From assembly GCA_903909375.1 (NCBI GenBank), contig CAIVVM010000034.1, positions 124,001-188,000 on the forward strand: DNA of 64,000 nucleotides. The letters run 5' to 3'. Within the stretch, counting starts at the first letter, position 1, and every line of letters starts with the position of its first letter. The position numbers and the translations under genes are program-made. This document shows positions 23,692-46,053 of the stretch, in pieces. Source of the DNA: an uncultured Alphaproteobacteria bacterium. Its GTDB lineage: Bacteria > Pseudomonadota > Alphaproteobacteria > Caulobacterales > Caulobacteraceae. The notes beneath the pieces were generated by a model that searched no databases, was not told the origin of the DNA, and was given only the letters and a program-made list of their open reading frames with translations.

Positions 23692-25482
23692 GTGGCCGAC
23701 GACCTGGGATTTGACCCCAACGCTCTACGGGAGAAGTACCGCGCCGAGCGTGATCGCCGTGTCCGCACCGACGGCAGCGAGCAATATGTCGAGATCGCTG
23801 GCCAGTTCGCCCACTACCTTGCGGACCCTTACGTCGAGCGCATCGAACGCGCGGCGCTGAACGAAGAAGTCGAGGTCGTCGTGGTGGGCGGCGGCTTTGG
23901 CGGGCAGCTGGCGGCAGCGCGGCTGCGTGAAGTCGGGGTCGACGATATCCGCATCATCGAGAAGGGCGGCGACTTCGGCGGCACCTGGTACTGGAACCGC
24001 TATCCCGGCGCGGCCTGCGATATCGAGAGCTACATCTACCTGCCGCTGCTGGAGGAGGTGGGATATGTGCCCGTTGAGAAGTACTCCCGCGCCCCCGAGA
24101 TCCTGCGCCATAGCCGCGCCATCGCCGAGAAGTTCGACCTTTATCGCGGCGCCCTGTTCCAGACCGAAGTCACCGAGATGCGCTGGGATGAGGCGGCGGC
24201 GCGCTGGACCGTCTCCACCAATCGTGGCGATGCGCTGAAGGCTCGGTTCGTGGTCATGGCCAATGGACCGCTGCACCGGCCGAAACTCCCGGGCATTCCT
24301 GGCGTTGAAGGCTTCAAGGGCCACAGCTTCCACACCAGCCGGTGGGACTACGGCTACACCGGTGGTGACAGCAACGGCGGCCTGACCGGGCTGAAGGACA
24401 AGCGCGTCGCGATCATCGGCACAGGCGCCACGGCGGTGCAGTGCGTGCCGCACCTGGGAGAATGGTCCAAGGAACTGTTCGTGTTCCAGCGGACGCCCTC
24501 GTCGATCGACGTGCGCAACAACCGCCCAACTGATCCGGAATGGGCTAAGAGCCTGGAGCCTGGCTGGCAACAACACCGGATGGATAACTTCAATATGCTT
24601 GTCTCCGGCGGCTTCGCCAAGGAAGACCTGGTGCAGGACGGCTGGACGGACATCATCGGCAACATCCTGCTGCTGGCCCGCAAGAAGATGGAAGCTGGCG
24701 AGGCGGTGGAGAACCCTGCCGAGCTGATGCAACTGGCCGACTTCAAGAAGATGGAACAGGTCCGCGCACGGATCGACGCAGTCGTCGAGGATCCCGACAC
24801 TGCCGAGGCGCTAAAGCCCTGGTACAACCAGTTCTGCAAGCGTCCCTGCTTCCACGACGAATATCTGGCCACCTTCAACCGCCCGAACGTCCACCTGATC
24901 GACACGAAAGGTCAGGGCGTGGAGCGGATCACCGAGCACGGCATCGTGGTGGACGGCAAGGAATACGAGGTTGACTGCCTGATCTACGCCACCGGGTTTG
25001 AGGTGGGCACCAGCTTCACACGCCGCTCGGGATATGAGCTTTATGGAGTTGGCGGCCAGAGCCTGACCGAGAAATGGGCTGACGGCGTATCCACGCTTCA
25101 TGGTGTGCTGTCGCGGGGCTTCCCCAACTGCTTCATCGTGTCGAACAGCCAGTCGGGCTTCAGCGCCAATTTCCCCCACATGATCAATGAGCAGTCGAAG
25201 CACATCGCCTATCTCATGACCGAGACTGCGGAGCGTCAGGCCCGGACCATCGAACCATCGGCAGAAGCCGAAGCGGCCTGGGTCGACACCATCGTGCGCC
25301 TGTCGGTCATGCGCGAAGGCTTCCTCAAGGAATGCACCCCCGGCTACTACAACAACGAGGGTCGCCCGGAGATGATCGCCAAGCAGAACGGCTCCTATGG
25401 CGCAGGGCCGGTGGCCTTCGTGAAGGTGCTGGAGGACTGGCGGGCAGAGGGTTCCCTGCAGGGGCTTGAACTTCAGGCCTGA
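23692..25482 (+). CDS. Flavin-containing Baeyer-Villiger monooxygenase
   Basis: 596 residues from a GTG at 23692 with a GGGAGA ribosome-binding site. The FAD loop is [16 protein letters not shown] and the NADPH loop is [12 protein letters not shown]. Between them lies the Baeyer-Villiger fingerprint [12 protein letters not shown], matching FxGxxxHTxxW. An N-terminal extension of about 60 residues before the first Rossmann strand is typical of the cyclopentadecanone and steroid monooxygenase branch. It inserts oxygen next to a ketone to give an ester or lactone, using NADPH and O2. The substrate is not evident. It stands alone, followed by a two-component system. Confidence 0.92.
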
Positions 25483-29241: not shown

Positions 29242-29670
29242 ATGCGTCTATCCACGAAAGGCCGCTACGCCGTGATGGCCATGGCGGATCTGGCGCGCCG
29301 CGAAGGCGACGCCGCGCGGGCCGTGGCGCTGGCTGACATCGCCGAGCGTCAGGAGATTTCGCTGAGCTATCTGGAGCAACTGTTCGCTCGATTGCGGCGC
29401 AAGGGTCTGGTCAAGAGTGCGCGGGGACCCGGCGGCGGGTACCGTCTGGCCCGGACGGCCGACGACACCTCGATTGCCGATATCGTGCACGCCGTCGACG
29501 AGCCTCTGCGCGCCACCCGCTGCGAAAAGGTGGGCCCGGGCTGCATGGTGCGCGGTGAGCGCTGCCTGACCCACGACCTCTGGGAGGATCTGGGCGACCG
29601 GATTGAGGACTATCTGGCCTCGGTCTCGCTGGCCGATGTGGTGGGCGGGAAGCTGAGGCGCGCCGCATGA
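29242..29670 (+). CDS. Rrf2-family Fe-S cluster-sensing transcriptional regulator
   Basis: 142 residues. An N-terminal winged helix (MRLSTKGRYAVMAMADLA, then ISLSYLEQLFARLRRKGLVKSARGPGGGYRL) matches IscR. Three cysteines at 94, 101 and 108 are the likely cluster ligands, but their spacing is C-x6-C-x6-C rather than the C-x5-C-x5-C of E. coli IscR. It should repress the suf genes when cluster-loaded. It heads the operon, and its stop overlaps the start of the next gene (ATGA). Confidence 0.92.
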   Translation: MRLSTKGRYAVMAMADLARREGDAARAVALADIAERQEISLSYLEQLFARLRRKGLVKSARGPGGGYRLARTADDTSIADIVHAVDEPLRATRCEKVGPGCMVRGERCLTHDLWEDLGDRIEDYLASVSLADVVGGKLRRAA

Positions 29671-30805
29671 GCCTCTATCTGGATCACAATGCCACGGCCC
29701 GCGTCAGGCCCCAGGCGATCGCGGCCATGACCCGGACGATGGAAAACGTCGGCAATCCGTCGTCGATCCACGCGGCGGGGCGCACGGCGCGTGCGGTGAT
29801 GGAACAGGCCCGGGCCGATGTGGGCGCGCTGATCGCCGCGCCGGAGTCGACGGTGATCTTCACCAGCGGCGGGACGGAAGCCAACGCCATTGCCCTGGAA
29901 AGCGCCGTGGCCGCCGGCGCGCGTCGCCTGATCGTTTCCGCCATCGAACATGACAGCATCCGCGAAACGGCGGGCATTCTGGGCGTTGAGGTCGAGGTCT
30001 TGCCGGTGGATAGCCTTGGCGTCGCCGATCTGGACTGGCTTGGCGAACGGCTGGCCCGTTGGGAAGCGGCAGACGGCAAACCCTTCGTGGCGCTGATGCT
30101 GGCCAACAATGAAACCGGCGTGATCCAGCCCGTGGCCGAAGCGTCGGCGATTGTCCGCGCAGCCGATGGCTGGCTGCATGTCGACGCCATTCAGGCGGCC
30201 GGCAAGATCGCCATGGACAGTCGCGCGCTCGGCGCCGACACGCTCTCGATCTCGGCGCACAAGCTGGGCGGACCGCAGGGCGTGGGTGCGCTGACCTTTG
30301 GGCCGCGCGCCACCCTGTCGCGTCGCCAGCATGGCGGCGGGCAGGAGCGCGGGCGGCGCGGCGGCACGGAGAACCTGCCGGGCATCGCCGGCTTTGGCGC
30401 AGCGGCGGCGGAAGCCCTGGCCGGTCTGGCGGGCTATGGCGCGCAGGCGGCATGGCGCGACGAAGCGGCGGCGCGATTGAAGGCTTCCGGCGGCGTCGTC
30501 ATGGGCGAGGGCGCGCCACGGCTGCCCAATACGCTGTGCATCGCCACGCCTGGCTTCACATCCGACCTGCAGGTGATCGGGCTGGATCTGGCCCAGGTGA
30601 TGATCAGCGCCGGCTCGGCCTGTTCATCGGGCAAGGTCAAGGCCTCGCCAGTCCTGACGGCCATGGGCCAGGGCGAGCTGTCGGCCTGCGTTATCCGCGT
30701 CAGCGGCGGCTGGGACACCACCGAAGCCGACTGGAACACCTTCGCTGACGTCTGGCTGGAGGCGCATGCCCGCCACAGCCAACGCCGCATGAGAAAGTCC
30801 GCGTA

Positions 30806-30806
<1 letters not shown>
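29667..30806 (+). CDS. Cysteine desulfurase, NifS/IscS-like (class I)
   Basis: 379 residues, PLP-dependent. It opens with [12 protein letters not shown]; the PLP lysine is Lys199 in [14 protein letters not shown], and the sulfur-carrying cysteine is Cys319 in the loop [11 protein letters not shown]. It removes sulfur from cysteine as an enzyme-bound persulfide. A second, class II desulfurase (sufS) lies further down the same operon, so the operon encodes two sulfur donors. Start and stop overlap the neighbouring genes by four bases and one base, implying translational coupling. Confidence 0.93.
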
Positions 30807-32274
<1,468 letters not shown>

Positions 32275-32275
<1 letters not shown>

Positions 32276-33021
32276 TGCTCAGCGTTTCCAATCTTCACGC
32301 CACGGTCGATGGCAAGCCGATCCTCAAGGGCCTAACGCTGGATGTGCCCGCTGGCGAGGTACACGCCATCATGGGCCCGAACGGGGCGGGCAAGTCGACG
32401 CTGTCCTATGTGCTGACCGGCCGCCAAGGTTACGACGTCACCGAGGGTGGCGCGACGCTCGACGGCGAGGATCTGCTGGCCCTTGAAGCCAATGAGCGGG
32501 CGGCCAAGGGCGTGTTCCTGTCGTTCCAGTATCCGCTGGAAATCCCGGGCGTTCCGGCCCTGACCTTCATCCGCACGGCGCTCAACGCCCAGAAGAAGTC
32601 GCGCGGCGAGCCCGAGATCACTGCGCCGGCTTTCCTGAAGCTGGCCCGCGAGAAGGCCGCCGCCCTCAAGATCGACTTCGAGATGCTGAAGCGCGCGCTG
32701 AACGTGGGTTTTTCCGGCGGCGAGAAGAAGCGGATGGAAATCTTCCAGATGGCGATGCTGTCGCCGCGCTTCCTGATCCTGGACGAAACTGACTCCGGCC
32801 TCGACATCGACGCTCTGCGGATCGTGTCCGAAGGCGTGAATGCGATGCGCAGCCCCGACCGCGCCATGCTGGTGATCACCCACTATCAGCGCCTGCTGGA
32901 CTACATCAAACCCGACCGCGTGCATGTGCTGGCCGGCGGTCGGATCGTGGCCTCAGGTGGGCCCGAACTGGCGCTGGAACTGGAGCGCGACGGTTATGAC
33001 CGCTACGCGAAGGCGGCATGA
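32275..33021 (+). CDS. sufC: Fe-S cluster assembly ATPase SufC
   Basis: 248 residues from a GTG at 32275 that shares a base with the sufB stop. It is an ABC-type ATPase with Walker A GPNGAGKST, a Q-loop at LSFQYP, the signature FSGGEKKRME, Walker B FLILDETDSGLD and switch VITHYQRLL. It drives conformational change in the SufBC2D complex. The sufD start overlaps its end by four bases (ATGA). Confidence 0.97.
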
Positions 33022-34040
33022 GCGTCGCTGCCGCCATCCGCACGCGGGACGTCGGTGAGCTTCCGTCCCGGCGCGACGAGGACTGGCGCTGGACCGACCT
33101 GCGCGGGCTGATCCGCGTCCTGCCCGACGCCTCCGAGGCCTTCACCGGTACGCTGAGCCCGGGCCCGTTTGACAGGCTGGCGGCCGACCACCACGTGCTG
33201 GTCAACGGCGGAGACGCGCGCATTGACGTGGCTGCGGGCAAGAAGACGCTCGTGGCGCTGCGGCTGGTGTCGCGCGGCGTCGGCGCGCACGCCTCGCGGG
33301 TGACCATCAATCTGGGCGCCGGGGCGCGGCTGCGCCTGCTGGAGAGCTATGAGAGCGATGGAGCCTCTGTTTGCCAGACGGCCCTGACCATCACCCTGGC
33401 CGAGGGGGCGGCGCTTGAGCGGATCGTGCTGGCCCAGGATCACGAGGATGCCGTTTCGGTAAGTCAGGCCGAGGTCCGCCTCTCGCCGACAGCTGATTTT
33501 GGCCAGACGATCGTGGCGTCGGGCGCGCGACGCCAGCGACTGGAGACGCGGGTCGTGCATCCCGGCGGACGCGCCAGCGCGCGGATGGACGGGGTCTATC
33601 TGGTGGCGGACAAGCGCCATACGGACCACACCACGGTCGTGACCCACGAAGGCGTCGACGGCACGACAAGCCAGTTGATCAAGGGCGTGGCCCGCGATCA
33701 GGCCCGCGCAGTCTTCCAGGGCAAGATCATCGTCTCCGAAGGCGCCGATCGGACCGACGCGCGGATGGGACACCACGCCCTGATCCTGTCAGATCGCGCC
33801 GAGGTGGACGCCAAACCCGAACTTGAGATCTACGCCGACGACGTCTCCTGCGCCCACGGCAATACGGTGGGCGCCATGGACGAGGACGCCCTGTTCTATG
33901 CCCGCCAGCGCGGCATTCCCGAGCCGGAGGCCCGCGCCATGCTCACCGAAGCCTTCATCGGCCAGGTCATCGACCGGATCTGGTTTGAGGACGCCCGCAA
34001 GGTCGTCCGCAAATGGGCCGCCGAACGGTTGAGGGTCTGA
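33018..34040 (+). CDS. sufD: Fe-S cluster assembly protein SufD
   Basis: 340 residues, a shorter SufB paralogue with a right-handed beta-helix. LPSRRDEDWRWTDLR marks the N-terminal domain. The C-terminal core reads MGHHALILSDRAEVDAKPELEIYADDVSCAHGNTVG, including the conserved His and Cys used with SufB at the cluster-forming interface, and ends with AMLTEAFIGQVID. It completes the SufBC2D scaffold. Two bases separate it from the sufS start at 34043. Confidence 0.96.
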   Translation: MSVAAAIRTRDVGELPSRRDEDWRWTDLRGLIRVLPDASEAFTGTLSPGPFDRLAADHHVLVNGGDARIDVAAGKKTLVALRLVSRGVGAHASRVTINLGAGARLRLLESYESDGASVCQTALTITLAEGAALERIVLAQDHEDAVSVSQAEVRLSPTADFGQTIVASGARRQRLETRVVHPGGRASARMDGVYLVADKRHTDHTTVVTHEGVDGTTSQLIKGVARDQARAVFQGKIIVSEGADRTDARMGHHALILSDRAEVDAKPELEIYADDVSCAHGNTVGAMDEDALFYARQRGIPEPEARAMLTEAFIGQVIDRIWFEDARKVVRKWAAERLRV

Positions 34041-34042
34041 TC

Positions 34043-35257
34043 ATGGCGTTCGACGTCGAATCGATCCGCAGCCAGTTTCCGATCCTGTCCCGGCAGGTGC
34101 ACGGCAAGCCGCTGATATACCTGGACTCAGCCGCCTCGGCCCAGAAGCCGCGCGCAGTGATCGAAGCTATGACGCGGGCTATGGAGCATTCCTACGCCAA
34201 TGTGCATCGCGGCCTGCACACGCTGGCCAACGAGACGACCGATGCCTATGAGGCCGCCCGGGCCTCTGTGGCGCGGTTCATCGGCGCTGACGTGAACGAG
34301 ATCGTCTTCACCAAGGGGGCCACCGAGGCGATCAATCTGGTGGCCAACGGGCTGGGCGCCACGCTGCAGGCCGGCGACGAAATCCTGATCACCGACATGG
34401 AGCACCACGCCAACATCGTGCCCTGGCATTTCCTGCGCGAGCGGCTGGGCGTGGTGCTGAAATGGGCGCCGGTGACAGATCAGGGCGTTCTGGATGTGGA
34501 GGCCTTTCAGGGCCTGCTGGGTCCCCGGACCCGGGTTGTGGCCCTCAGCCACATGTCGAACGTCCTGGGCACCATCAATCCGGTGAAGACGCTGACCCGG
34601 ATGGCGCATGAGGCCGGCGCGCTGGTGCTGCTGGATGGCTGCCAGGCTGTAGCCCACCAGAGCGTGGACGTTCGCGACCTGGACGCCGACTTCTATGTGT
34701 TCTCCGGCCACAAGCTCTACGGCCCGACCGGGATCGGTGTGCTCTACGGCAAGGCCGAGCGCCTGGCCGTGCTGCCCCCCTACCAGGGCGGCGGAGAGAT
34801 GATCGCTCAGGTTTCCAGGGATGCGATCAGCTATGCCGATCCACCGCATCGGTTCGAGGCGGGAACGCCTGCAATCCTGGAAGCGATCGGGCTTGGCGCC
34901 GCTATAGAGTGGCTCAGCGGGCTCGACCGGGAGGCCATCGCCGAGCATGAGGCCGCGCTCTACGCGCGCGTTCGGGAAGGCCTGAACGGGGCCAACTGGC
35001 TGCGGGTGATCGGAGAGGCTCCGGGGAAGGGGGCCATCCTGACCTTTACCGTCGCCGGTGCGCATGCCCACGACGTGGCCCAGATCCTGGATCGTTACGG
35101 CGTGGCCATCCGCGCCGGGACCCATTGCGCGGAGCCCCTGATGACCCGGTTCGACATCACTTCAAGCGCCCGGGCGTCTTTCGCCCTATATAACACCCCG
35201 GACGAGGCGGACGCCTTTGTGGACGCCCTGACCAAAGCACAGGCCTTTTTCGCGTGA
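34043..35257 (+). CDS. sufS: Cysteine desulfurase SufS (class II)
   Basis: 404 residues from the ATG at 34043; a frame-compatible start at 34013 lies within sufD and is rejected. The PLP lysine is Lys224 in VFSGHKLYGPTGIG, and the catalytic cysteine is Cys362 in RAGTHCAEPLM, the short class II loop. ASAQKPRAVIEAM and YANVHRGLHTLA are typical. SufS normally passes sulfur to SufE; no sufE is in this window. The sufT start overlaps its stop by four bases (GTGA). Confidence 0.96.
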   Translation: MAFDVESIRSQFPILSRQVHGKPLIYLDSAASAQKPRAVIEAMTRAMEHSYANVHRGLHTLANETTDAYEAARASVARFIGADVNEIVFTKGATEAINLVANGLGATLQAGDEILITDMEHHANIVPWHFLRERLGVVLKWAPVTDQGVLDVEAFQGLLGPRTRVVALSHMSNVLGTINPVKTLTRMAHEAGALVLLDGCQAVAHQSVDVRDLDADFYVFSGHKLYGPTGIGVLYGKAERLAVLPPYQGGGEMIAQVSRDAISYADPPHRFEAGTPAILEAIGLGAAIEWLSGLDREAIAEHEAALYARVREGLNGANWLRVIGEAPGKGAILTFTVAGAHAHDVAQILDRYGVAIRAGTHCAEPLMTRFDITSSARASFALYNTPDEADAFVDALTKAQAFFA

Positions 35258-41046: not shown

Positions 41047-42237
41047 ATGTCAGACGGCCTGTTCAGCGATCTGCTCGTCATCGATTGCGCCAGTTTTATT
41101 GCGGGGCCTGCGGCGGCGACTGTGCTGGGGGACTACGGCGCGCGGGTGATCAAGATCGAGCCGCCGGGCGTAGGCGACGCCTATCGCAACCTGTTCCGGC
41201 TGCGCGGCACGCCCGACGAGGTGGATTATTTCTGGACGCTGGAGTCGCGCAACAAGGAGAGTCTGGCGCTGGACCTTCGCAGGCCGGAGGCGCAGGCAGT
41301 GCTGCACGCGCTTGTGAAACGTGCGGACGTGTTCATCACCAATTCGCCGTTTCCGGCGCGGGAGCGCATGGGGTTGAGGGTCGAGGATCTGATGCCTCTG
41401 AACCCCCGGCTGATCTATGCCTCGCTGTCACCCTATGGCGAGTTGGGCCCGGAGCGAGACCGGACCGGATTTGACGCCACCGCCTGGTGGGCGCGCTCGG
41501 GGCTGATGGACATGGTGCGCGCCGGCCCGACTACGGAACCGGCGATTTCGATGCCGGGGATGGGCGACCATCCGACGGCCATGGCCATGTACGGGGCGAT
41601 CGTGACGGCGCTCTACAAGCGCCAGATGACCGGGACGGGATCCGAGGTCACCACCTCGCTGCTGGCCAACGGACTTTGGGCCAACGGGTGTCAGGTGCAG
41701 GCGGCGCTCTGTGGCTATGAACTGATGACGCGGCCGCCGCGCGGGGCGCGAGGGGTGCTGAACGAGATGTTCCGCGCTGCTGACGATCGCTATTTCATCC
41801 TGACCAGCACAAATCCGTTCCGGGACTGGCCGCTGCTGGCCAGGGCTGTGGGGCGCGCCGAGTGGCTGGAGGATCCGCTATTTGCAACGCCCGAGGCGCG
41901 GATGGCGAACGGTCCCGAGCTGGTGGCCCGGTTCGATGCGCTGTTCGCCGGTGCGCCCTTCGAACACTGGTCACGGGTCTTGACCGACGGCGACGTGACG
42001 TTTGGCGTGGTATCGCAGATCTATGATCACCTGACCGACGACCAGATCGAGGCCAACGGCCTGTTTCCCGAGATCGAGGGTAGCTATGGGCTGCGCACCG
42101 TCGATAGCCCTTTCCAGATGACCGGCGAGACGAAGGTCGCCCCGCACATGGCGCCGGGGATCGGCGAGCATTCCCGCGCCCTGCTGGAGGAATTCGGATG
42201 CTCCGCCGAGGAGATCGAAGCGGCGCTGGCGGGGTAG
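41047..42237 (+). CDS. Class III (CaiB/BaiF-family) CoA-transferase
   Basis: 396 residues. The N-terminal Rossmann-like part reads LLVIDCASFIAGPAAATVLGDYGARVIKIEPP, followed by NKESLALDLRRPEA and YASLSPYGELGP. The catalytic aspartate is in GFDATAWW, matching the FDLTAQ position of formyl-CoA transferase. Such enzymes move CoA between carboxylic acids through an aspartyl anhydride. The substrates are unknown. It lies just after the kinase pseudogene, whose family is often found beside acyl-CoA genes, and converges with phaZ, 8 bp away. Confidence 0.92.
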   Translation: MSDGLFSDLLVIDCASFIAGPAAATVLGDYGARVIKIEPPGVGDAYRNLFRLRGTPDEVDYFWTLESRNKESLALDLRRPEAQAVLHALVKRADVFITNSPFPARERMGLRVEDLMPLNPRLIYASLSPYGELGPERDRTGFDATAWWARSGLMDMVRAGPTTEPAISMPGMGDHPTAMAMYGAIVTALYKRQMTGTGSEVTTSLLANGLWANGCQVQAALCGYELMTRPPRGARGVLNEMFRAADDRYFILTSTNPFRDWPLLARAVGRAEWLEDPLFATPEARMANGPELVARFDALFAGAPFEHWSRVLTDGDVTFGVVSQIYDHLTDDQIEANGLFPEIEGSYGLRTVDSPFQMTGETKVAPHMAPGIGEHSRALLEEFGCSAEEIEAALAG

Positions 42238-42245
42238 GGGCCGGC

Positions 42246-43118
42246 TCAGGCTGCGGTGGCGAGGGGCTGCTGATCCGCGCCGGCGAGGAAACGGCGGATC
42301 ACGGGGAAGGTCTCGGCCGGGCGGGACACCATGAACAGATGCCCGCCGGGCACTGTCTCCAGCTGCGCATTGGGGATCAGTCGCGCCAGGAACCTGCCGT
42401 TGACCAGTGGCACAATGCGATCGCTCTCGCCCATCAGGACCAGCGTCGGGGTCTTCAGGAAGGGCAGGAAGAAAGCGCTGGTCCAGCCGGCCATGGCCGC
42501 CAGCTGATAGAGATAGCCACGCTGTGACGGCGGCCGCAGCCTGCCGATGTGAGCGTCGGAGTTCATCTCCTCGCCATAGAGGGCTTCGAAGTTCTGTCGC
42601 ATGAACTCCGGGTCAATGTAGCGGCGCGGATTGGCCATCTTGGCCAGGACCTTGGGATCGCCGGGCGCCATGAACACGCCCGCAGCCGTCGCCGCCAGGA
42701 TGAGCTTGCCGACGCGGTCCGGGTGCTGGAAGGCGAACTGCTGGGCCATGCCCCCACCCCAGGACACGCCCATGACATCGACCTTGCCGGTATAGCCCAG
42801 CTTGTCGAGCAGCCGCGTGGTGCGGAGCGCCATGGTCCAGGGGCGGTAGGGGAATCTGGGGCTGGGTGAGCCACCAACGCCTGGCATGTCGAAGGTGATG
42901 ATGTCCTGATCCGGCATCCATTCGGCCAGGGACGCCATGATCTCGATGTTGGCGCCGATACCGTTGAAGAACAGGATCGGGCGCCCCTTCGCCTTACCCT
43001 TCGCAGTCCTGGCTTCCCAGACGGCGACACGCAGGCTGCGACCGGCGATCTTCATGATCTCCATCCGCGGCTCGCGGGCGGATCCGGGGGCGTCCTGGGC
43101 GTTGCCGGAAGCTTTCAC
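42246..43118 (-). CDS. phaZ: Intracellular polyhydroxyalkanoate depolymerase (PhaZ, Pseudomonas type)
   Basis: About 290 residues from a GTG at 43118 preceded by AAAGG; an ATG at 43064 is the alternative. Alpha/beta hydrolase fold with nucleophile Ser119 in VMGVSWGGGMAQQFAFQHP, which matches the GVSWGGALAQ signature of the medium-chain-length PHA depolymerase of Pseudomonas. GRPILFFNGIGANIE holds the oxyanion region, and the acid and base are in LMGESDRIVP and GGHLFM. It mobilises stored PHA. It begins 11 bp after the phaC stop on the same strand, so the two are cotranscribed. No signal peptide. Confidence 0.88.
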   Translation of the reverse strand: MKASGNAQDAPGSAREPRMEIMKIAGRSLRVAVWEARTAKGKAKGRPILFFNGIGANIEIMASLAEWMPDQDIITFDMPGVGGSPSPRFPYRPWTMALRTTRLLDKLGYTGKVDVMGVSWGGGMAQQFAFQHPDRVGKLILAATAAGVFMAPGDPKVLAKMANPRRYIDPEFMRQNFEALYGEEMNSDAHIGRLRPPSQRGYLYQLAAMAGWTSAFFLPFLKTPTLVLMGESDRIVPLVNGRFLARLIPNAQLETVPGGHLFMVSRPAETFPVIRRFLAGADQQPLATAA

Positions 43119-43129
43119 AGGGTGGCCTT

Positions 43130-44818
43130 TCAATCGAATACGTATTCGCCGGGCGCAGCGACGCCGGGCGGGTTCTTCCTGGAGCCCAGATCCTTGGGCG
43201 CCGACTTCAACTCTCCGGAACGGGCCTGCAACCACTGCGCCCAGAAAGGCCACCAGGAACCCGCATGCTCCGAGGCGTCGTTTGCGAGCCATTCGTCGAT
43301 GCTGGTGGGCGGGCGCTTGTCGCTCTTGAAGTACTTGGCCTTGGGGTTGCCCGGCGGGTTCAGCAGCGACTGGATGTGGCCAGCCTGGGACAGGATGAAC
43401 TCCACGTTCGGTGAGCCGATCAACTGGGTCGTGCGGTAACAGGCCTTCCAGGGCGTGATGTGGTCTGTCACGCCGGCGACCACGAAACAGTCCTGGGTGA
43501 CCTTGGTCAGGTCGACCTTGTGGCCGGCCAGCTCGGTAACCCCCGGCGTGGCGAAGGGTTGCGTCTCGTAGACCCGCAGGTAGTCAGAATGCAGGGTCGC
43601 CGTCAGGTTGGTGGAGTCGTTGTTCCAGAACAGGACGTCGAAGGCGGGCGGGTCCTCGCCGTGCAGGTAGTTGTTGATCACATAGTTCCAGACGAGGTCA
43701 TTTGGCCTCAGCCAGGCGAACGTCCGTGACAGCGAGGAGCCTTCCAGCACGCCGGCCTTGGCCGATCGCCGCCGCGCCATTTCTATGCCATGGGCCGACA
43801 CCAGGGCGCCGGTCTCGCTGTCGTCGGGCTGCGGATCCAGCACGCAGACCATCAGGGTCGCTGCGCCAATGCGCGGATCACCTTCTGCAGCCAGCTTGCT
43901 GAGCAGCGTGGCCGCCGTGATTCCGCCGGAACAGGCGCCGGAGATGTTCACAGTCCTTGACCTGGTGATCTGGCAGATCACGTCGATGGCTTCGATCAGG
44001 GCGTCAACATAGTCGGCCAGGCCCCAGTCGCGGTGTTCGGCCGTCGGATTTCGCCAGCTGACCATGAAGGGCTGGATGCCGCTGCTGGTCAGGAAGCGGA
44101 TGATGCTCTTTTCCGGCGACAGGTCGTTCACATAGGCCTTGTTGATCTGCGGCGGGATGATCAGCAGCGGCACGCCGTGCACCTGTTCGGTGGTCGGCGC
44201 GTACTGGATCAGCTCCATCATCTCGGTGCGATGAACCACGGCGCCCCGCGTTGTGGCGATATTCTCGCCGATCTTGAACGGGCGCTTGTCCACCTGGCTG
44301 ACGATGCCGTCGTTCTGGGTGATGTCCTCGTAGGCGTTCTTCAGGCCCTTGATCAGCGAGCCGCCGCCGGTCTCGAACGCCTTCTTCAGCGCCGAGGGAT
44401 TTCCGATCAGGCTGTTGGTGGGCGAAACTGAATCCAGGATCATGTTGGTGACGAAGCTGGCGCGCGCGCGCTCACCGTCATCAAAATCCAGATCGTCCAT
44501 CCAGTGGCCAACCCCCTGACGGACCGCCAGATAGTACTGCATGCCGGCGCGATAGAAGGGGTTGCTGCGGAAGGCGGGGTCCAGAAATCGCTTGTCCTTG
44601 GGGTCAGGGGCCAGTTCGGACTTGTTCTGGACGATCTTGACCACTTCACCGCTGAAGTTTTTCAGGTGTTTGAGGGTCTTGACCGGCCGGCCAGCGGTTT
44701 CGCGCAGCATAACGCCCACAGCGCCCATCAGGTCTTCGCGCGCAAGCCCGATGATCGGATTCATGGCCACGGTATTTTCAGCAGCCCCGCCGCCGAGATC
44801 GATCTTCGGTTTCGCCAT
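43130..44818 (-). CDS. phaC: Poly(3-hydroxyalkanoate) synthase, class II-like
   Basis: 562 residues from the ATG at 44818. The lipase-like box GACSGG places the nucleophile at Cys296, with Asp452 and His453 in VTDHITPWK and the catalytic His481 in AGHIQSLLNPPG. These positions match almost exactly those known for Pseudomonas PhaC1 (Cys296, Asp452, His480), and many segments read as class II: AENTVAMNPIIGL, GVLEGSSLSRTFAWLRPNDLVWNY. It polymerises 3-hydroxyacyl-CoA into storage granules. Most alphaproteobacteria carry class I synthases, so this type is unusual. It heads a leftward phaC-phaZ unit, divergent from a TetR regulator. Confidence 0.94.
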   Translation of the reverse strand: MAKPKIDLGGGAAENTVAMNPIIGLAREDLMGAVGVMLRETAGRPVKTLKHLKNFSGEVVKIVQNKSELAPDPKDKRFLDPAFRSNPFYRAGMQYYLAVRQGVGHWMDDLDFDDGERARASFVTNMILDSVSPTNSLIGNPSALKKAFETGGGSLIKGLKNAYEDITQNDGIVSQVDKRPFKIGENIATTRGAVVHRTEMMELIQYAPTTEQVHGVPLLIIPPQINKAYVNDLSPEKSIIRFLTSSGIQPFMVSWRNPTAEHRDWGLADYVDALIEAIDVICQITRSRTVNISGACSGGITAATLLSKLAAEGDPRIGAATLMVCVLDPQPDDSETGALVSAHGIEMARRRSAKAGVLEGSSLSRTFAWLRPNDLVWNYVINNYLHGEDPPAFDVLFWNNDSTNLTATLHSDYLRVYETQPFATPGVTELAGHKVDLTKVTQDCFVVAGVTDHITPWKACYRTTQLIGSPNVEFILSQAGHIQSLLNPPGNPKAKYFKSDKRPPTSIDEWLANDASEHAGSWWPFWAQWLQARSGELKSAPKDLGSRKNPPGVAAPGEYVFD

Positions 44819-44944
44819 CTTAGCCCTGCGTTGTTCCAATCTTGTCGGTGTGAACGGTTTTGTCCGTTCGCCTTATGCGCCTATACTTAGCGCTTCTTAT
44901 TCGCTGTCAATTGAGGGCGACGCATCGCCATCGGATGGTCGCCC

Positions 44945-45547
44945 CTGAGCACGAAGTCCCGCATTCTCGAAAAGGCGCTCGAACTCTTCAACAAAGAGGG
45001 TGTCGCGGCCCTCTCGGCCGTCGATATCGCGACCGCGCTCGGGATCAGCCCGGGACATCTCTACTATCACTTCAAGGGCCGCGCCGAGATCGTCGCCGCG
45101 TTGGCTGCGGAATACCGGGCCGAAGTCGACATGGTGCTCGACGCGCTGACCGACACCCTGCAGACCGATGGAGCCAGCTTCGAGACCCTCTGGACCTATG
45201 TCCACATCCTCATCGAAGAAGCCTGGGATGCGCGGTTCCTCTACCGCGAGGCTGCTGCCCTGGTGATGCGCAGCCAGGACCTGGCGGCCGTCTTCCGACA
45301 TGTGGCCACCCGGGAACGCACGACCCTGGCGAGGGCGCTGACCGACCTGAGCCGCGACGGCGTGATCTCCGCCTCGCCCGAGGTCATCGATGGCGTTTCG
45401 CGCCTGATGACCACCGGGATCGGCTTCCACGCCATTGAACTGGAGCTCGAGGGAGACGCCGGTCCGCCGCGCGAGCGGATTGCGCGCGCTGCGGCCCAGG
45501 TCATGCTCCTGCCCGCCGCCCTCATCAGGGGCGGGCAAAAGACTTAG
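44945..45547 (+). CDS. TetR-family regulator of the pha cluster (PhaD-like), non-canonical start
   Basis: About 200 residues. The TetR helix-turn-helix is complete at the N-terminus: STKSRILEKALELFNKEG, IATALGISPGHLYYHFKG. Yet the frame has no ATG, GTG or TTG between the TGA at 44912 and this domain. The only plausible start is CTG at 44945, unless one base in the CCCC run at 44942-44945 is extra, which would join an ATG at 44935. The domain resembles PhaD of Pseudomonas, which activates pha genes. It is divergent from phaC and its stop overlaps the convergent phasin gene. Confidence 0.8.
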   Translation: MSTKSRILEKALELFNKEGVAALSAVDIATALGISPGHLYYHFKGRAEIVAALAAEYRAEVDMVLDALTDTLQTDGASFETLWTYVHILIEEAWDARFLYREAAALVMRSQDLAAVFRHVATRERTTLARALTDLSRDGVISASPEVIDGVSRLMTTGIGFHAIELELEGDAGPPRERIARAAAQVMLLPAALIRGGQKT

Positions 45548-46053
45548 GCGGCTTCGACGGGCTCGACCGTCTTGGCCTTGGCGGGCTTCTCCGCCGCGGT
45601 GGCCTTTTCGGCCTTCAGGGCGGCCACTTCCCGGGTCAGTTGCTCGACCTGGGCGGTCAGCTTTTCCATGGCATGACCCAGCGCGCCGATGTTCAGCGGG
45701 GCGAGGGTTTCCGACACGGTCTTGCGGACCTTGCCGATGCGGGCCTCCAGGGCGGCGCGCTGTTCGGCGCGGAAGGCCTTGACCTGATCGGTGGCGTTGC
45801 CGACCAGCGACACAACGCGGTCGCCGCGGGGCGACTTGGCGATGGTTTCACGGACCTTGTCCTCGACTTCCTCACCCTTGGCGACCAGCTGGTCGAAGGC
45901 TTCGTTGGCGCCGGTGGCGAGCTTTTCGACCGCACCCTGCGTCTCGGTGTACATGCGCCCATAGGCGCCGACGCCGGCCAGCCAGATCTTGCGGGCGATG
46001 TCGGTGTCGACGGCGACTTCGACGGTCTCTTTGGTCTTCCTGGCCTTGGCCAT
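45544..46053 (-). CDS. Phasin, PhaI/PhaF type
   Basis: 169 residues. The N-terminal signature ARKIWLAGVGAYGRM is that of the granule-associated PhaI/PhaF family. A long amphipathic helix follows, then a leucine-zipper-like stretch (HAMEKLTAQVEQLTREVAALKAEKA) for oligomerisation, and a short Lys/Ala/Pro tail. It lacks the long AAKP-repeat histone-like tail of PhaF, so it is closer to PhaI with a small extension. It coats PHA granules and helps control their size. It stands opposite the phaD-like gene and completes the pha cluster. Confidence 0.9.
   Translation of the reverse strand: MAKARKTKETVEVAVDTDIARKIWLAGVGAYGRMYTETQGAVEKLATGANEAFDQLVAKGEEVEDKVRETIAKSPRGDRVVSLVGNATDQVKAFRAEQRAALEARIGKVRKTVSETLAPLNIGALGHAMEKLTAQVEQLTREVAALKAEKATAAEKPAKAKTVEPVEAA

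Follow-up and report, generated by a model that had tools for sequence, protein, structure and literature searches.

A probable compact storage module with a class II-like polyhydroxyalkanoate synthase in a Caulobacteraceae genome

Introduction

Class II polyhydroxyalkanoate (PHA) synthases have been treated mainly as a Pseudomonas trait, with some in Burkholderiales (PMC5944434, PMC8231600), and in two PCR surveys the phaC fragments from Alphaproteobacteria were placed in class I (PMC4326521, PMC5944434). A 64,000-nucleotide stretch of DNA (the window) from an uncultured member of the Caulobacteraceae (assembly GCA_903909375.1, contig CAIVVM010000034.1) raises the question of what a Pseudomonas-style cluster of a synthase gene (phaC), a depolymerase gene (phaZ), a TetR-family regulator gene and a phasin gene represents in such a genome. 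A preliminary description of the window had reported this cluster at 42246-46053 and suggested either an ancient transfer or an under-recognised lineage of class II systems with one synthase. All four open genes were found where it had placed them (Table 1), in a genome of 3.69 Mb in 74 contigs (listed as 99.97% complete with 0.08% contamination). With a probability of about 0.78, we read the locus as a storage module, compact in layout, that belongs to a distinct class II branch made up almost entirely of Alphaproteobacteria; in this reading it stands beside a class I system, is patchily kept and seems to have been exchanged between genera.

In searches covering open-licence PubMed Central, no title or abstract opening described an alphaproteobacterial class II lineage. 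Related suggestions concern a possible origin of Pseudomonas class II from alphaproteobacterial phaC (PMC5944434), a single-synthase class II cluster in Cupriavidus with closer homologues of unconfirmed function (PMC4636328), and class II-like 'group C' synthases in Burkholderiales (PMC8231600).

Class affinity of the synthase

Scored against the curated NCBIfam models, the window PhaC reached 684.4 bits with the class II model TIGR01839 (cut-off 855.4) and 483.9 bits with the class I model TIGR01838 (cut-off 622.65). The class II match spans residues 11-561 of 562 and covers the class II N-terminus. Three other members of its clade were scored (616.8, 663.8 and 685.2 bits) and fell below both cut-offs, as did the PhaC of a Bradyrhizobium plasmid (674.4 bits); with the class II model, a Paraburkholderia PhaC gave 777.6 bits and a Pseudomonas-type PhaC 1039.7 bits.

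In genome scans the scores fell into separate groups. The counts of class II-like synthases were taken from the best-scoring rows among the matches listed, and fragments at contig edges would be missed. None of 40 genomes (the window genome and 39 relatives) passed the class II cut-off; the listed matches lay either at 653.6-735.4 bits or at no more than 430.8 bits, except for one contig-edge fragment at 467.9 bits. At least 10 of 289 genomes of the class, the window genome included, held a match above 540 bits, the next being at 489.5 bits. Across 397 genomes of the phylum, the cut-off was passed by 16, all of a single family, f168 (1023.6-1080.3 bits); 17 further genomes, all from the window's class or nearer, scored 601-700 bits, followed by 471.7 bits. 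The family f168 is probably Pseudomonadaceae, given that the tree nests a Pseudomonas mandelii protein (L167) within it and that 14 of its 16 genomes carry two class II synthases about 3 kb apart. Finally, 18 of 249 genomes of the window's own family (own genome included, all at least 90% complete) held a match of 646.6-700.9 bits, the other listed matches not exceeding 448 bits. Named relatives extend the picture: the best 80 of a larger number share 52-85% identity with the window PhaC, and 78 of them carry alphaproteobacterial titles. The nearest are from uncultured Caulobacterales bacteria (85% and 83%) and a Caulobacteraceae bacterium (81%), followed further off by a Phenylobacterium metagenome-assembled genome (MAG; 78%) and Caulobacter sp. 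SLTY (72%). These titles place the window genome near Caulobacteraceae and suggest that its family, f1, is Caulobacteraceae. Among the carriers whose titles do not name a MAG are Caulobacter sp. SLTY and Aquidulcibacter paucihalophilus TH1-2.

Pseudomonas-type rows (16) and class I rows (16) can be told apart, at 90% each, by eight alignment columns. Score and motif served to define the class I rows, of which 14 are alphaproteobacterial. At these columns the window PhaC has the class II letter six times, the class I letter once and neither letter once. Among the 848 cells that these columns make up in 106 class II-like rows, 548 hold the class II letter and 64 the class I letter; these rows are our own grouping of loci and include L009 and L064, which are one gene, and L159, assigned to a Bradyrhizobium-like branch through its close relative L158. 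Cys296 and Asp452, which had been pointed out as sharing their numbers with Pseudomonas PhaC1, do so, but this carries no class information and was dropped as a class mark, because the columns of Cys296, Asp452 and His481 are invariant in all 16 Pseudomonas-type, 106 class II-like and 16 class I rows. Two other candidate marks were rejected. His409 was unusable as a class II tunnel residue, being His in 14/16 class I rows and Met in 45/106 class II-like rows; PMC6403647 describes a Tyr-to-His difference, whose placement at 409 in our alignment is a guess. E130D was dropped as a sign of preference for short-chain-length (scl) monomers, as Asp also occurs in 12/12 Pseudomonas-type synthases of 560 residues. 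The profile scores, the N-terminal coverage, the six of eight columns and the neighbouring phaZ, PhaD-like TetR and PF05597 phasin genes together bear out the class II affinity originally proposed.

Phylogeny of the synthase

In a first tree of 79 PhaC rows with a class III outgroup, class I formed a clade (93/93) with the window PhaC outside it and inside a clade of 40 rows (100/99). This clade joined the Pseudomonas-type, Paraburkholderia and Bradyrhizobium proteins (92/81), and all class II-like rows came together (91/77). A second tree comprised 63 rows, after removal of 7 long-branch rows and of 12 rows by thinning and addition of 3; the window PhaC's clade (95/99) and class I (90/86) persisted. 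In both trees the clade is almost wholly alphaproteobacterial and separate from Pseudomonas PhaC1/PhaC2, and a branching of the window PhaC within class I, the result named beforehand as refuting, was looked for in both and not found. Judged from these trees, the window PhaC is neither inside class I nor inside Pseudomonas class II, and its clade is probably, with moderate support, the sister of the latter. The genome scans, the trees and the named loci support an under-recognised lineage with one class II synthase, wider than the searchable literature suggests.

Two loci in this data set carry unexpected titles. L108 (Acidobacteria bacterium) is one of the 40 clade rows and nests with Caulobacterales; it and L121 (Candidatus Sulfopaludibacter) lie on contigs with Hyphomonadaceae-like phaC, phaZ, TetR and phasin matches, and both are likely mislabelled or mixed MAGs. 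Separately, a Tsukamurella plasmid (L185, 1-7575) bears a class II-like phaC on a long tree branch with MaoC, phaZ and long-chain fatty-acid CoA ligase genes; the phaC-phaZ pairing therefore extends to Actinomycetota.

The neighbouring genes and the Pseudomonas cluster

The translated phaZ contains the GVSWGG motif reported for it. PhaZ scored 241.2 bits with the medium-chain-length (mcl) PHA depolymerase model TIGR02240, narrowly below the cut-off of 250.6; in a genome-wide scan with this model it was the best match (240.7 bits), the next reaching 65.9 bits. It is 43-45% identical to the PhaZ of four Pseudomonas-type clusters. The resemblance of the regulator to PhaD also held: the TetR protein has the domain pair of Pseudomonas-type PhaD, TetR_N and PF13972, and is the best match in the genome to a Pseudomonas-type PhaD query (E 9.5e-23, 33% identity over residues 3-192; next match 2.2e-6). 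Conversely, it matches one open reading frame (ORF) in each of four Pseudomonas-type regions. Likewise, the likeness of the phasin to PhaI/F stands in that it passes Pfam PF05597 (51.9 bits, cut-off 28.8), though it misses the NCBIfam TIGR01837 cut-off (49.1 against 94.7 bits); BLASTP matched it to phasins of three of four Pseudomonas-type regions (E 2e-6 to 8e-4), with no match in the fourth.

The pairing of phaC and phaZ is conserved throughout the named loci. Downstream of phaC on the same strand, phaZ is found in 79 of the 80, the remaining contig ending inside phaC, and PhaC and PhaZ identities covary over 93 clusters (Spearman 0.90; the sequences are related, so the p-value means little). 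Counted by eye, TetR matches occur in 29/80 loci (22 divergent upstream, 7 downstream) and phasin matches in 27/80. Loci bearing them are mainly titled Caulobacterales or close; the remainder include Tepidicaulis and a Kordiimonadaceae MAG. A GAACGG-N6-CCGTTC palindrome between phaC and the TetR gene was rejected as a shared operator: it was not found ahead of phaC in any of 29 loci from relatives (two of these, L009 and L064, represent one gene, and in several loci the TetR gene lies elsewhere).

The best-fitting start of the TetR gene is a CTG at 44945, with no in-frame ATG, GTG or TTG before the helix-turn-helix. A start pattern searched in 10 relatives gave GTG in two (L061 and L200) and matched nothing in the other eight. 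The CTG where these two have GTG might mean weak translation of the gene. PhaD of Pseudomonas putida is an activator of phaC1ZC2D and phaIF, with a stronger effect on octanoate than on glucose (PMC9049629).

Compared with the Pseudomonas arrangement, phaC1-phaZ-phaC2-phaD plus phaI-phaF, the window has the same kinds of genes: a class II synthase homologue with phaZ directly downstream, a TetR gene with PhaD's Pfam pair and a PF05597 phasin gene. Two synthases flank phaZ in the Pseudomonas layout and phaD ends the operon, whereas the window cluster has one synthase, below the class II cut-off and with Cys325 and Tyr417, a TetR gene divergent from phaC and one phasin gene convergent with it. 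Only the kinds of genes speak for a recent transfer of a Pseudomonas cluster into the window lineage. PhaC is only 47-48% identical to Pseudomonas-type PhaC, its clade is its own in both trees with no Pseudomonas donor nesting it, the gene order and the synthase number differ (one here, two in 14/16 Pseudomonas-type genomes), and the best 80 named loci are almost all alphaproteobacterial by title. We consider such a transfer very improbable. The ancient transfer proposed at the outset is not supported for a Pseudomonas donor, since the genes make up a clade of their own; the indications are of transfer within the family.

Plasmid clusters of Bradyrhizobium, Paraburkholderia, Pukyongiella and Tsukamurella resemble the window in having one class II-like synthase with phaZ close downstream. 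In contrast to the window, a MaoC hydratase gene lies beside their phaC, and their PhaC proteins are 42-48% identical to the window PhaC and sit on other tree branches.

A second synthase in the same genome

PhaC_N matches revealed two synthases in the genome, the cluster PhaC and a PhaC on contig C40 that passes the class I cut-off (768.6 bits with TIGR01838). The two share the enzyme superfamily and the catalytic residues but only 39% identity, and no PhaZ match was found near the class I gene in the 16 kb searched. A PhaB is encoded on contig C20 (376.1 bits, cut-off 302.1), and a single Phasin_2 match lies on contig C53. The contrast drawn earlier with the usual alphaproteobacterial class I system needs a correction: as class I PhaC and PhaB are also present, the class II-like cluster does not replace that system. 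Six MaoC-domain matches in the genome could supply (R)-3-hydroxyacyl-CoA.

Discordant histories within the family

The 18 class II-like full-length carriers among the matches listed for the 249 family genomes are distributed over four genera: three in the window genome's own genus (g1), three in g228, eight in g229 and four in g437. For comparison of synthase histories, 15 genomes were chosen for holding both class I and class II-like synthases. The class I PhaC tree of these genomes recovered all four genera as clades. In the class II tree, by contrast, the window PhaC fell with g228 and g437 (100/100), and g229 was joined by the four remaining g1 members (100/100). The identities agree with this: the window class II PhaC is 84-85% identical to that of three g228 genomes and 72-78% to that of four genomes of its own genus, whereas its class I PhaC is 71-73% identical to g228 and 78-79% to its own genus. 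The approximately unbiased (AU) test rejected g1 as a single class II clade (p 1.5e-42). Applied to class I, it rejected the class II grouping (p 0.007); this grouping was named after inspection of the tree, which favours rejection. With one genome per genus compared, all four module genes are closer to g228 than to g229 or g1.

From these comparisons, the four-gene module seems to have moved or been exchanged as a unit between Caulobacteraceae genera, and exchange suggests itself as the simplest reading of the discordant class II history. An old duplication followed by many losses would explain the sparse presence of the genes in the family equally well. However, none of the 15 compared carriers has two full-length class II-like copies (three of them have a further short, unclassified PhaC_N match, which limits this copy count), and the same order of identity recurs in all four genes. 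We regard duplication and loss as unlikely.

Flanks were compared between 12 loci and the window ORFs of at least 150 residues from 30 kb on. Matches beyond the module were found in two loci, one of the same genus and one of Henriciella; the matches in the Henriciella flank were a gyrase-B-like gene (43-52%) and a GGDEF gene (30%).

Proposed function and polymer type

We propose that the cluster most likely runs a second cycle of storage, for monomers derived from fatty acids, beside the class I polyhydroxybutyrate (PHB) system. PhaC would polymerise (R)-3-hydroxyacyl-CoA, most likely of C6 and longer or as an scl/mcl mixture, fed with monomers from beta-oxidation by MaoC-type hydratases; the phasin would coat the granule and PhaZ would return the monomers. 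The PhaD-like TetR protein may read an acyl-CoA-related signal and control the divergent phaC-phaZ unit, possibly the phasin gene too. The class I PhaC and PhaB, encoded elsewhere in the genome, would operate alongside this module.

Residues at chain-length positions point in both directions. Ser325-to-Cys changes raise 3-hydroxybutyrate use; the change named in the papers cited here is S325T. The Ser325 column holds Cys in the window PhaC and in 91/106 class II-like rows, and Ser in 16/16 Pseudomonas-type rows; the window protein also has Ala479. Gln481 is an engineered position in Pseudomonas PhaC1 (PMC3815930), and its column holds Gln in 106/106 class II-like and in 16/16 Pseudomonas-type rows, and Ala in 16/16 class I rows. 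The window protein keeps Gln483 and Leu486. Leu486 lies in the column to which PMC4636328 points as 484; class II synthases mostly have Leu at this position, and PhaC2 of Cupriavidus pinatubonensis JMP134 has Ile. Our alignment shows Leu there in 6/6 Pseudomonas-type rows; three Burkholderiaceae rows (L168, L208, L209) share the Ile of JMP134 PhaC2. All of these residues are weak guides to chain length: in Yarrowia, a Pseudomonas variant with substitutions at 130, 325, 477 and 481 failed to incorporate shorter monomers (PMC6545009).

The JMP134 phaC2 cluster offers a precedent for a different product. As in the window genome, a single class II-grouped synthase is accompanied by phaZ and a phasin, and the cell possesses a class I synthase as well; unlike the window, the cluster as described there has five genes, including fadE and phaJ, and no regulator (PMC4636328). 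Its PhaC2 was active on 3-hydroxybutyryl-CoA (3HB-CoA) and not on 3-hydroxyoctanoyl-CoA (3HO-CoA), and its transcript stood 240-fold above that of phaC1 on octanoate (PMC4636328); its scl-only specificity is thus a measured one. The window PhaC might similarly be class II by descent and make scl-PHA, mainly of 3-hydroxybutyrate, as a second PHB system under fatty-acid control. Cys325, Ala479 and Tyr417 fit this, as does a PhaB to supply 3HB-CoA. On the other side, the window PhaC retains Leu where JMP134 PhaC2 has Ile, the cluster's PhaZ is nearest to TIGR02240, a class I synthase is already present, and the residues guide only weakly. Production of scl-PHA is a serious but lesser possibility. 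An mcl product is plausible, and mcl monomers have been reported from Trinickia caryophylli, a carrier of class II-like synthases (PMC8231600); overall we lean, without great confidence, towards an mcl or mixed polymer.

Several observations weigh against the interpretation of the locus as an exchanged mcl-type module of a class II branch. Forcing the 40-row clade together with class I cost 15.2 log units and was not rejected (AU p 0.073), and the deepest forks of the second tree, including the link with Pseudomonas class II, did not resolve; because of these two results we do not claim a firm sisterhood with Pseudomonas. In the rows shown, none of the four cluster proteins reached an NCBIfam cut-off, and position 417 is Tyr, as in 16/16 class I rows, where Pseudomonas-type rows have Phe. 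No TetR or phasin match was found at E 1e-3 in the Sphingomonadales loci among the 80. Neither phaJ nor phaG lies inside the four-gene cluster. As regards the product, class II grouping need not mean mcl, as the Cupriavidus case illustrates, and a Caulobacter class I PhaC accepts various chain lengths (PMC6403647), so a second synthase would be unneeded for longer monomers. As regards exchange, the same-genus locus has two SUF-like genes near the module, as here, but arranged differently; with such genes near the module in both own-genus genomes, there is room for an old shared location. In the window, the run at 29667-35257 is what we take, by eye, to be SUF-type iron-sulfur assembly genes.

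Layout of the locus and its surroundings

Table 1. Features of the pha locus in the window.
Feature	Positions	Strand	Details
phaZ, intracellular PHA depolymerase (alpha/beta hydrolase, GVSWGG)	42246-43064	-	272 aa; ATG at 43064
phaC, class II-lineage PHA synthase	43130-44818	-	562 aa; Cys296, Asp452, His481
Divergent intergenic region, phaC / TetR gene	44819-44944		presumed promoters and regulator site
phaD-like TetR-family regulator gene	44945-45547	+	200 aa; apparent CTG start
Phasin gene, PhaI/PhaF type	45544-46053	-	169 aa; convergent with the TetR gene, whose end it overlaps

Beyond the module, an ecdysteroid kinase-like gene at 40199-40946 matches PF02958 with 24.1 bits over profile positions 5-98 of 294. 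By eye it looks broken: what resembles a C-terminal part is in a different frame and has no Pfam match, and the middle is apparently missing. It is followed by a CoA-transferase family III gene (41047-42237). At 23692-25482 lies a 596-residue flavin monooxygenase-like ORF, judged by eye to be of the Baeyer-Villiger type; a pair of response regulator and sensor kinase genes comes after it.

Implications

A more far-reaching picture would be a deep, almost wholly alphaproteobacterial lineage parallel to Pseudomonas class II, missed by the curated models and naturally scl/mcl-mixed (Cys325), with its own PhaD, whose four-gene cassette moves between genera retaining a class I PHB system for other conditions; in this full form we hold it to be tentative and rather doubtful. 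More immediately, the scored members of the window PhaC's clade fall below both curated cut-offs, and the branch is broad and poorly annotated; proteins of neighbouring branches with the same score position (Bradyrhizobium and Pukyongiella plasmids) bear the public label 'alpha/beta fold hydrolase'. Should the polymer prove to be mcl or mixed, numerous Caulobacterales and Sphingomonadales would be candidate producers, and position 325, an engineered site, would vary naturally in ways that might bear on chain-length control. The dual-synthase genomes permit a direct look at why cells hold two polymer systems.

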